Shown here piece after piece: positions 13,564-15,719 of a stretch of 64,000 nucleotides of DNA. The stretch's first letter is position 1. Every line of letters begins with the position of its first letter. A program made the translations under genes and the position numbers. Source of the stretch: Aurantiacibacter xanthus (GTDB lineage: Bacteria; Pseudomonadota; Alphaproteobacteria; Sphingomonadales; Sphingomonadaceae); assembly GCF_003584015.1 (NCBI RefSeq), contig NZ_QXFM01000066.1, forward strand, positions 1 to 64,000, in the 5' to 3' direction. Under the pieces are notes generated by a model. It was not told the origin of the DNA and made no database searches. It saw nothing but the letters and a program-made list of their open reading frames with translations.

Positions 13564-14316
13564 TCACCCCATCATGGCCATTCCGCCGTTCACGTGCAGC
13601 ACCTGTCCGGTGACATAGCCCGCCTCGTCGCTGGCGAGATAGGCCACCGCACCGCCGATATCGCCGCCCTCGCCCATCCGGCCCATCGGGATGCGGGCGT
13701 TGATCGCGTCCTTCTGCTTGTCGTCGAGCGCGTCGGTCATGGCCGAGCGGATGAAGCCCGGCGCCACGCAGTTGACGGTGATGTTGCGGCTGGCGAGTTC
13801 GGCGGCAAGGCTGCGGCTCATGCCCGCGACGCCTGCCTTGGAGGCGCAATAGTTCATTTGGCCCGGATTACCGGTGGCGCCGACCACGCTGGTGATGTTG
13901 ATGATGCGGCCGTGGCGGGCCTTCATCATCGGCCGGGTGGCGGCGCGCATCAGGCGGAAGGTCGAGCTGAGGTTCACCGCGATCACATCGTCCCACTCCT
14001 CGTCCTTCATCCGCATGGCGAGGTTGTCACGGGTGATCCCGGCGTTGTTGACGAGGATGTCGAGCTTGCCGAGCGTGTCGATGGCGGCGGGGATGAGTTC
14101 CTCGACCTGCTGCGTGTCGGACAGGTTGCAGGTGATCTCGACGTGGTCGTGGCCGAAGTCGGCGTTCAGTTCCTCGCGGAAGGCGCGCAGCTTGGCCGGG
14201 TTCGAGCCCGAGAGTGCGAGGCGGGCACCTTGCTTCGCGAGCGAGCGGGCGATGGCCGAGCCGATCCCGCCGCTGGCGCCGGTGATGAGGGCGGTTTTTC
14301 CTTCGAGTGAGAACAT
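13564..14316 (-). CDS. fabG: 3-oxoacyl-ACP reductase (FabG)
   Basis: A 250-residue classical SDR. The cofactor motif TGASGGIGSAIA is at the N-terminus, NNAG in the middle, and the catalytic S, Y-x-x-x-K are seen in NITSVVG and NYCASKAG. It ends with VNGGMAMMG. It reduces 3-oxoacyl-ACP in fatty acid elongation. I start at the second ATG (14316), where AGGACACAGCTA precedes it; an ATG 18 bp upstream adds MYRTQL. In the usual fab cluster fabG follows fabD directly; here a GxxExxY cassette separates them. Confidence 0.97.
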   Translation of the reverse strand: MFSLEGKTALITGASGGIGSAIARSLAKQGARLALSGSNPAKLRAFREELNADFGHDHVEITCNLSDTQQVEELIPAAIDTLGKLDILVNNAGITRDNLAMRMKDEEWDDVIAVNLSSTFRLMRAATRPMMKARHGRIINITSVVGATGNPGQMNYCASKAGVAGMSRSLAAELASRNITVNCVAPGFIRSAMTDALDDKQKDAINARIPMGRMGEGGDIGGAVAYLASDEAGYVTGQVLHVNGGMAMMG

Positions 14317-14338
14317 TAGCTGTGTCCTGTACATTGTT

Positions 14339-14358
14339 CGCTCGCAGAGGCGCAGAGG
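14339..14358 (+). repeat. Left 20-bp inverted repeat of GxxExxY cassette
   Basis: Perfect partner of 14765-14784. It contains the internal doublet gcagag-gcgcagag, a motif repeated twice within the arm. Confidence 0.85.
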
Positions 14359-14359
14359 G

Positions 14360-14752
14360 TCACATTGGCGAGCGATGGTTGTTGACGACCCGGCGGATTC
14401 CTTCCTTCATGGTCTCGCCGGAAAAATTGAGAAGCAGCCCTACGGGCTGTTGAGTAAGGCGTAGGTATGTCAGCAATTGCTTGGCGTGCAAATTCGAGAG
14501 GCGCTCAACGGACTTGATCTCCAGCACGAGACGATCATCCACAAGCAGATCGATCCTGAAAGCATTCACGAAAGTCTGGCCTTCAAAGCAGATGTCGATC
14601 GCCTTCTGGCGGTCGACCTTCACTCCTGCGCGAACGAGCGATCCGGTAAGAACCAGCTCATAAACCGATTCGAGCAGCCCCGGTCCCAACTCACGATGAA
14701 TGCGAATACAGTGGTCAACCACCATTCCGCTCAACTCATCAATCTCGCGCAT
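14360..14752 (-). CDS. GxxExxY protein, PD-(D/E)xK nuclease fold
   Basis: A 130-residue protein of the GxxExxY family: G-L-L-E-S-V-Y in ELGPGLLESVYE near residue 25. A PD-(D/E)xK-like active site appears complete: D in FRIDLLVDD, E-I-K in LVLEIKSVE, and a following K-Q in AKQLLTYLR. The family is of unknown function, often found singly between core genes. The chosen ATG follows GGAGGGGGT closely; a longer frame to 14848 would run into fabD and is rejected. Its placement inside inverted repeats suggests that the nuclease serves the cassette, as in homing systems, but this is inference. Confidence 0.88.
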   Translation of the reverse strand: MREIDELSGMVVDHCIRIHRELGPGLLESVYELVLTGSLVRAGVKVDRQKAIDICFEGQTFVNAFRIDLLVDDRLVLEIKSVERLSNLHAKQLLTYLRLTQQPVGLLLNFSGETMKEGIRRVVNNHRSPM

Positions 14753-14764
14753 ACCCCCTCCGCG

Positions 14765-14784
14765 CCTCTGCGCCTCTGCGAGCG
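14765..14784 (-). repeat. Right 20-bp inverted repeat of GxxExxY cassette
   Basis: Perfect reverse complement of 14339-14358. It begins 3 bp beyond the fabD coding end on the plus-strand map and lies upstream of the GxxExxY ribosome-binding site. Confidence 0.85.
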
Positions 14785-14786
14785 CC

Positions 14787-15719
14787 TCAAATCTCCTTCG
14801 CGAGCGCCTCGATATCGTCCATCCCCACCACACTGGTGACACGCGCATCGGGGGCGATCTTCTTGATCATCGGCCCCAGCACCTTGCCGCCCAGCTCGAC
14901 GAAATGGGTGATCCCCGCATCGGCCATCGCCCCGACGCTCTCGCGCCAACGCACGCGGCCGGTGATCTGCTGCACCAGCAGATCCAGCTCCTCGCCCGCA
15001 TCGGTCACGGGAGCAGCAGTCACGTTGGCGTAAAGCGGCAAGCGGAACGCCTGCGGCGGGGTCGCCGCCAGGGCCTCGGCCATCTTCTCCGCCGCCGGGC
15101 CCATCAGCGAGCAGTGGAACGGCGCCGACACCGGCAGCTTGATCGCGCGCTTGCAGCCATATTCCTTCGCCAGTTCGACCGCCCGGTCAATCGCCGCAAG
15201 GTGGCCCGAGAGCACGACCTGCCCCGGATCGTTGTCGTTCGCCACTTCGCACACGTCACCCTGCGCGGCAGCTTCGGCGAGCGCCGTCGCCTTCTCGATG
15301 TCCGCCCCGAGCAGCGCGCACATACCGCCCAAGCCGACCGGCACGGCGGCCTGCATCGCATCGCCGCGAATACGCAGCAGACGGGCCGTATCGGCAAGGC
15401 TGAACGCGCCCACGGCGGCCAGCGCCGAATATTCGCCCAGCGAGTGCCCCGCCACGGCCTCACCCTTGGCCGACAGGCTCACCCCGCCCGCCTCAAGCAC
15501 GCGCGCAATGGCCAGCGCATTGGCCATGATCGCAGGCTGCGCATTGGCGGTCATCGTCAGCTCGTCCTCAGGCCCTGCCGCCATCAGCGCCGACAGCTTC
15601 TGCGACAGCGCCTCGTCGACCTCTTCGAAGGTCTCGCGCGCGATGGAACTGGCGGCAGCGAGATCGACACCCATGCCGACCTTCTGGCTGCCCTGCCCCG
15701 GAAATACGAATGCGATCAT
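14787..15719 (-). CDS. fabD: Malonyl-CoA:ACP transacylase (FabD)
   Basis: A 310-residue acyltransferase. It begins MIAFVFPGQGSQKVGMG, holds the nucleophile in GHSLGEYSA, and has the later conserved APFHCSLM with the catalytic His. It loads malonyl groups on ACP for fatty acid synthesis. I start at the ATG at 15719, with AGGAG 8 nt upstream; the frame stays open further upstream but that part is unlike the family. It is first in a minus-strand unit fabD - GxxExxY - fabG. Confidence 0.97.
   Translation of the reverse strand: MIAFVFPGQGSQKVGMGVDLAAASSIARETFEEVDEALSQKLSALMAAGPEDELTMTANAQPAIMANALAIARVLEAGGVSLSAKGEAVAGHSLGEYSALAAVGAFSLADTARLLRIRGDAMQAAVPVGLGGMCALLGADIEKATALAEAAAQGDVCEVANDNDPGQVVLSGHLAAIDRAVELAKEYGCKRAIKLPVSAPFHCSLMGPAAEKMAEALAATPPQAFRLPLYANVTAAPVTDAGEELDLLVQQITGRVRWRESVGAMADAGITHFVELGGKVLGPMIKKIAPDARVTSVVGMDDIEALAKEI

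Follow-up and report, generated by a model that had tools for sequence, protein, structure and literature searches.

The GxxExxY gene that separates fabD from fabG in the Aurantiacibacter xanthus DNA analysed here (contig NZ_QXFM01000066.1, positions 1 to 64,000; this whole stretch of 64,000 nucleotides is called the window) forms, together with the inverted arms that bound it, what is probably an autonomous mobile element with MITE-like derivatives, in which a PD-(D/E)xK nuclease reads its own arms and would cut them, with copying of the unit as a likely consequence. The observations behind this reading are the arm-bounded gene itself, arm pairs that lack the gene, an internally deleted derivative, insertion junctions that are polymorphic between relatives, and covariation of arm and nuclease.

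The cassette between fabD and fabG

The locus comprises the following features:

13564..14316, minus strand: fabG, the flanking gene downstream
14317..14338, minus strand: short spacer from the arm tip to the fabG start (in the empty sites of the relatives G025 and G062, 2 bp lie between fabD and fabG)
14339..14358, plus strand: arm on the 3' side of the gene, two tandem units (CGCAGAGG) reading inward; matched as an inverted repeat and dispersed in the genome
14360..14752, minus strand: GxxExxY nuclease gene, 130 aa, with PF13366 and TIGR04256 profile matches; D68, E78, K80, G23, E28 and Y31 invariant in 73 of 73 proteins
14758..14784, minus strand: arm on the 5' side of the gene, three tandem units (CGCAGAGG CGCAGAGG CGCGGAG) reading inward; its tip lies 2 bp from the fabD stop codon
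14787..15719, minus strand: fabD, the flanking gene upstream

As the first-pass annotation had claimed, the gene sits between perfect 20-bp inverted repeats (14339-14358 and 14765-14784, 406 bp apart), with 1 bp between its stop codon and one arm and 12 bp between its ATG and the other, and fabD and fabG are the flanking genes. The third unit on the fabD side (14758-14764) moves the end of that arm to 5 bp from the ATG. The make-up of the arm, first described as a gcagag doublet, is tandem indeed, the actual unit being an 8-nt sequence (CGCAGAGG) that reads inward. A direct repeat across the right arm and the fabD end, also part of that description, exists as a 16-nt pair (14773-14788 and 14795-14810, 88% alike). 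Its two members are found towards fabD from the gene instead of bracketing the cassette, which rules the pair out as a target-site duplication.

Over its full length, the encoded protein matches PF13366 (PDDEXK_3; E 3.1e-36, 124.7 bits against a cut-off of 22) and TIGR04256 (GxxExxY; E 5e-36, 123.6 bits against a cut-off of 35). The residue set of PD-(D/E)xK nucleases, catalytic D ... E-x-K, is intact as had been proposed, with D68, E78 and K80 invariant in all 73 aligned proteins. PDDEXK/GxxExxY were the sole matches of the gene among the Pfam and NCBIfam profiles, which revealed no DDE, tyrosine, serine or HUH transposase, and a Y1/HUH domain was matched in none of Pfam, NCBIfam, PADLOC and PHROGs. 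From the latter two collections came weak matches only (RTasPDDEXK, E 2.2e-5; Cas4b, 0.004; a CRISPR-associated PHROG, 0.007), and the PDB profile search with the window protein gave nothing (best E 0.69).

Arms of GxxExxY genes and their relation to the nuclease

In a scan of a public genome collection, at least 589 stretches matched and at least 581 were confirmed, the best 80 of which were kept; by record title, these 80 cover at least 10 phyla. PF13366 is present in 6 of 61 relatives, with nine genes in total, all of them arm-bounded with matched left and right arms on inspection by eye and with a spelling that varies by gene (CGCAGAGG, CGCGGAGA, CACAGAGG, ACACGAAG and GCGCAAAG). The best 80 and the nine genus genes made up a first set of 89, reduced to 88 by leaving out L127, which has no flank. 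Inverted arms at a score of at least 12 were found around 78 of the 88 genes versus 9 of 295 other ORFs from these loci that served as controls, and at a score of at least 18 around 59 versus 1. This single control is an ORF of locus L107, read as hsdS, that itself lies inside perfect arms of the same kind. At L107 (2321-4400), the junctions of a putative type I restriction operon (hsdS, GxxExxY, hsdR) bear arms or a gene-less element, and an hsdR-like gene, as read from its sequence, lies downstream in L099 and L100 as well.

Class and phylum surveys enlarged the set to 203 loci, a few short partial matches being left out; after removal of 12 loci without a match of 90 aa and of 2 duplicate genes, 188 genes with flanks remained. 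The first-pass annotation had proposed to look for arms around GxxExxY genes elsewhere, and most of these do have them: 157 of the 188 possess matched inverted arms at a score of at least 12, versus 11 of 359 control ORFs taken from these loci, and at least 18 was reached by 113 genes versus 2 control ORFs. An earlier arm test (51 of 80) was an undercount, since arms often extend into the 3' end of the gene, and was replaced by the later ones. The arms consist of tandem 7-nt units (CRCNRAG and variants), mostly at a spacing of 8-10 nt. With this motif, which was drawn from the same data, at least two inward units on both sides were present in 138 of 187 genes versus 6 of 561 shuffles, and at least three in 96 of 187 versus 0 of 561; in the outward reading, the corresponding counts were 28 and 6 of 187. 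At least one of the two arm tests was passed by 164 of the 188 genes, and the 24 that failed both include several that keep one arm or decayed units and some that show none. The phage collection yielded no GxxExxY gene, the plasmid collection seven records with a match and the viral contigs five loci; two of the latter (L308, L310) carry distant GxxExxY genes whose long flanking inverted repeats are A+T-rich and differ in sequence.

Arm spelling follows the nuclease. Arm similarity increased with protein identity among the 138 genes that have units to the left and right (Mantel r=0.41, 0 of 2000 permutations), and also within one host family (r=0.55, 46 genes, 0 of 2000 permutations); for pairs below 70% identity, r was 0.38 overall, 0.44 in that family and 0.28 in the other 92 genes. 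Clades differ in the seventh arm base (G, T, A or C) and in unit spacing. Covariation with single residues was analysed for arm base 5, which is G or A in all but 7 of the 138 genes (these 7 were left out), in 19 phylogenetically independent contrasting pairs. The residue aligned with window G9 predicted this base in 15 of the 16 pairs that were informative (P=0.0013 after correction over 117 columns), S8 in 11 of 11 and V104 likewise in 11 of 11; a third-best column as good as that observed occurred 0 times in 20000. G9 differs in 16 of the 19 contrasting pairs, and among the 1236 same-base pairs with 50-80% identity it does so in 727; it is the top column separately in the genes of family f181 and in the remainder. 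Residues 8, 9 and 104 trained on f181 predicted 80 of 85 other genes (best of 200 random triples, 79). Trained outside f181, they were right for only 32 of the 46 genes in f181, a number that random triples could also reach (best 39); S8 and V104 therefore transfer poorly to f181. For arm bases 2 and 4 no residue covaried significantly (P 0.16 and 0.56), and arm base 7, with its G, T, A and C types, offered one independent pair only. Of the two targets offered by the first-pass annotation, the repeat arm and the empty fabD-fabG site, the arm is favoured, both by a spelling that goes with the nuclease and by the covariation between residue and base. That an old family of host repeats merely received the nuclease gene by accident, with no functional link between the two, could be brought into line with the vertically inherited appearance of part of the fabG-linked genes (see below), but the association holds in at least 10 phyla and the arms track the nuclease inside one host family, which leaves this explanation with a very small probability.

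Gene and repeat also keep company at the genome level. Among 289 Alphaproteobacteria the gene occurs in 20, the repeat, scored as three units, in 21 and both in 10, where 1.5 would be expected (Fisher p=4.7e-8); among the 61 relatives, four have both, two the gene only and one the repeat only (Fisher p=1.4e-4). The match is incomplete: 11 of the 21 genomes with the repeat are without a gene match, and in 10 of the 20 with the gene the three-unit pattern is absent. As a control, this pattern was also read backwards, and it then matched 13 of the 289 genomes (24 matches versus 158 forward), for which reason some single three-unit matches may be due to chance. Three genomes (G249, G263 and G010) have 10, 19 and 3 three-unit matches without PF13366, as after loss of the gene, through a draft gap or with a partner acting in trans. 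The 14 matches of G262 are one-strand arrays, not pairs; at G262:C1:154895-154981 and 1824700-1824762, tandem arrays fit the unit pattern without forming inverted pairs, and they are probably an unrelated repeat.

The nearest upstream ORF is co-directional with the gene in 116 of 142 loci, and both neighbours are in 85 (ORFs of at least 100 aa within 400 bp). A co-directional upstream ORF could provide for expression of the gene without a promoter of its own. The same arrangement would suit arms that act in the transcript, and the 11 of 21 repeat-bearing genomes without a gene match would be in line with arms that serve a host nuclease as operators or as sites of RNA processing, the arm pairs having been spread in trans by an unrelated transposase. 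We assign this scenario a slim probability, as it is opposed by the matched arms at both ends, by the co-occurrence of gene and repeat far above chance and by the window arms, which enclose the GxxExxY gene and no other.

Gene-less copies and insertion sites

A search of the window genome (G000; 4.38 Mb, 146 contigs) with the cassette returned one whole cassette and, at 13 further places, the arm alone; 12 of these 13 matches form six inverted pairs whose starts are 38-169 bp apart. The three-unit pattern has 23 matches in this genome, one being the cassette's own arm, and the backwards control none. A chance origin of the arms is thus not tenable, given the 13 further matches, mostly pairs, and the 23 versus 0 of the three-unit pattern; in G016 and G022 the backwards control gave one match each. 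At eight dispersed sites the window genome harbours gene-less arm pairs, several of them nested, in some cases with the older arm type CGCGGAGA outside and CGCAGAGG inside. Judged by three-unit matches in the genus genomes, dispersed copies tend to share the spelling of the resident cassette: CGCGGAG units in 8 of 8 non-cassette matches of G034, CGCAGAGG in 3 of 3 of G016 (one pair) and its own mixed type in 9 of 10 of G022, with two arm types among the dispersed copies of the window genome. In or beside several of the latter elements, e.g. those on contigs C92 and C106 (C106a and C106b), there is a second palindromic repeat (GCGCCGCAGGC / GCCTGCGGCGC); the elements may have inserted next to it, or it may be a separate repeat family.

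Folded as single strands, two of the gene-less elements give nearly perfect hairpins (-43.8 kcal/mol with z -10.5, and -35.4 kcal/mol with z -8.0), and a cruciform or single-strand substrate is for this reason possible. Counted by eye among the matches listed (the first places per genome), opposite-strand neighbour units within 300 bp were oriented inward in 22 cases and outward in 1. Both findings, as well as the lack of a consistent target duplication, would also be in keeping with a single-strand route as in REP/RAYT systems, in which the arm hairpin would be processed by the nuclease as single-stranded DNA at the replication fork, and double-strand breaks would play no part in copying. The gene gave no Y1/HUH match, though, and the individual arms are on inspection non-palindromic tandem units, unlike REPs, the hairpin being formed by the arm pair. 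We regard this route as rather unlikely, albeit the foremost of the alternatives.

Comparison with relatives provided occupied and empty versions of the fabD-fabG site, as the first-pass annotation had suggested looking for. The gap of 470 bp in the window genome corresponds to 2 bp in G025 and G062 (FabD about 96-97% identical), so the locus is not filled in all relatives. Across 30 fabD-fabG loci of the genus, 3 have a cassette before fabG (one with an extra gene), 14 a gap of 0-16 bp, 1 a scar and 2 another insert, and 10 have no adjacent fabG within the stretch. The scar, a 56-bp junction in G020 (L159; FabD 97%) with arm tips only (TTCGCGCAG ... CTGCGCGAA), likely reflects collapse of a cassette. 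At L041 (G021), the GxxExxY gene between fabD and fabG has an internal stop and its arms still match, as in a decaying cassette.

For seven of the eight dispersed elements, the orthologous sites in three near relatives were examined, and none of the seven was present there in full. The sites of C40 and C106b are clean gene junctions; at C106a and C135 a single arm is kept in two relatives; 26-57 bp are kept at C126 and 9-12 bp at C92, and C42 has other sequence. The seven sites revealed no consistent target-site duplication; 8-bp overlaps occur at two of them (C40, C106b), 29-37 bp off the arms. In an unrelated genus, g305, the genomes inspected at a junction that we take to be pheA-hisC include four with an empty site (G414, G540, G366 and G464; 15-24 bp) and one with a full site (G369; 555 bp). 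G458 has a 195-bp internally deleted copy there, in which both arms are retained along with the nuclease gene's 3' end; a gene-less element is present in G363 and a decayed one in G447. Between the genes read as znuC and znuB, the site is likewise full in G369, as opposed to an empty gap of 26 bp in G447.

Directly before fabG lie 25 of 189 genes (some loci are short), with fabD directly upstream in 21 of them; other cassette junctions, named from their sequences, are pheA-hisC, ribF-ileS, znuC-znuB and trpD-trpC. Hence the proposed arm-plus-nuclease unit does recur, with empty and occupied sites, without being a cassette of one site. Left and right arms at the 25 fabG-site loci score 25.1 on average within a locus versus 14.8 between loci, the own right arm ranking first or second in 20 of 25. 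The GxxExxY and FabG trees at this junction are partly congruent (r=0.55, 0 of 2000 permutations), and part of the distribution is accordingly attributed to vertical inheritance with loss. FabG of L098 is near those of L078 and L091, and its nuclease groups with L093, L094 and L096, all with CGCGAAG-type arms. We read the fabG-site pattern as long residence with loss and probably some whole-cassette replacement, the latter suggested by this tree placement, which was read without branch support. An argument for replacement from divergence was discarded, as L078-L098 (fabG 94%, cassette 76%) behaves the same as L078-L091 (93%, 76%).

Homing at the fabD-fabG site, as initially envisaged, is partly right. 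In a purely site-specific version, the nuclease would cut the empty fabD-fabG junction, or other operon junctions in other clades, and repair would copy the cassette, with arms that are incidental or protective. The 25 genes directly before fabG, the occupied and empty alleles in near relatives, with pheA-hisC likewise empty and full, and the L098 nuclease and arm type, which look as if replaced beside a FabG of the L078/L091 kind (again without branch support), would fit. We nevertheless deem this version improbable: cassettes occupy several other junctions, gene-less arm pairs are scattered in a way that a simple homing endonuclease does not explain, and site homing does not predict that arm spelling covaries with a nuclease residue.

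Proposed mode of spread and relation to known systems

In the mobile-element reading that we prefer, the nuclease would bind the tandem units sequence-specifically via its N-terminal region and would cut arm DNA, either as a duplex or as an arm hairpin or cruciform. The arm-bounded segment might then be copied to new places by host replication or repair, these places often being gene junctions and sometimes the interior of older elements. A lone PD-(D/E)xK nuclease is not known to have strand-transfer activity, which counts against this reading, as do the lack of a consistent target duplication, the mismatches between gene and repeat, the partly vertical distribution at the fabG site, the negative outcome for arm bases 2 and 4, the 24 genes that failed both arm tests and the poor transfer of the residue rule to f181. 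We hold the reading slightly less firmly because of the backwards-pattern matches and the weak transfer to f181.

REP/RAYT systems, in which the RAYT gene is flanked by REP copies in set orientation, are the nearest analogue, with an enzyme gene flanked by a short repeat and with dispersed gene-less copies. They differ in that RAYT is a tyrosine transposase, whereas GxxExxY is a PD-(D/E)xK protein without a Y1 (HUH) match, and in that each REP is an imperfect palindrome, whereas GxxExxY arms are non-palindromic tandem 7-nt units. According to PMC3686654, RAYT-linked REP classes are assigned to a cognate RAYT gene on which REP abundance depends, with tens to over a thousand REPs; the GxxExxY repeat has 1 to 39 three-unit matches in each repeat-bearing genome. 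Insertion sequences with MITEs resemble the cassettes in the terminal inverted repeats common to full (G369) and internally deleted (G458) copies, but are moved by transposases of known classes, none of which was matched in the window gene, and no consistent target-site duplication was seen here. Free-standing homing endonucleases are encoded by small genes at a conserved junction that is filled in some genomes and empty in others. The likeness lies in the small nuclease gene and in the empty and occupied alleles of one site, at fabD-fabG and pheA-hisC, and the difference in the arms, the dispersed gene-less copies and the several insertion sites of GxxExxY cassettes.

The TIGR04256 and PF13366 entries assign the family to a nuclease superfamily, with no further function and no mention of arms. 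In the searched portions of the literature, subscription papers and preprints excluded, GxxExxY and PF13366 are named only in passing, and the arm sequence appears in no paper concerning such an element. We file the cassette as a new class because the enzyme characteristic of each known class tested has no counterpart in the gene, and we consider the chances about even that GxxExxY and its arms represent an unrecognised pan-bacterial class of mobile elements, with a lone nuclease, a readable code (residue 9/arm base 5) and no transposase of a known class. If any pair of enzyme and repeat is taken as one kind, the GxxExxY cassette is a variant of that kind.

If correct, this interpretation would assign a function to nucleases whose sole annotation is a motif, account for a dispersed repeat type found in many phyla and add a class of elements whose mobility depends on a nuclease outside the known transposases. 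Since arm spelling varies naturally with nuclease sequence, recognition of DNA by the protein is open to direct experiment. Elements between genes of core operons (fabD-fabG and, as read, ribF-ileS and trpD-trpC) bear on gene expression. An element within a coding sequence was encountered as well: the nested gene-less element on contig C133 (G000:C133:2708-2928, L002) lies in frame inside a gene that we read, from its sequence alone, as an error-prone DNA polymerase, and the frame is open throughout. Such an in-frame element inside a gene resembles the Rickettsia palindromic elements and, with its polymerase-like host gene, bears on protein evolution.
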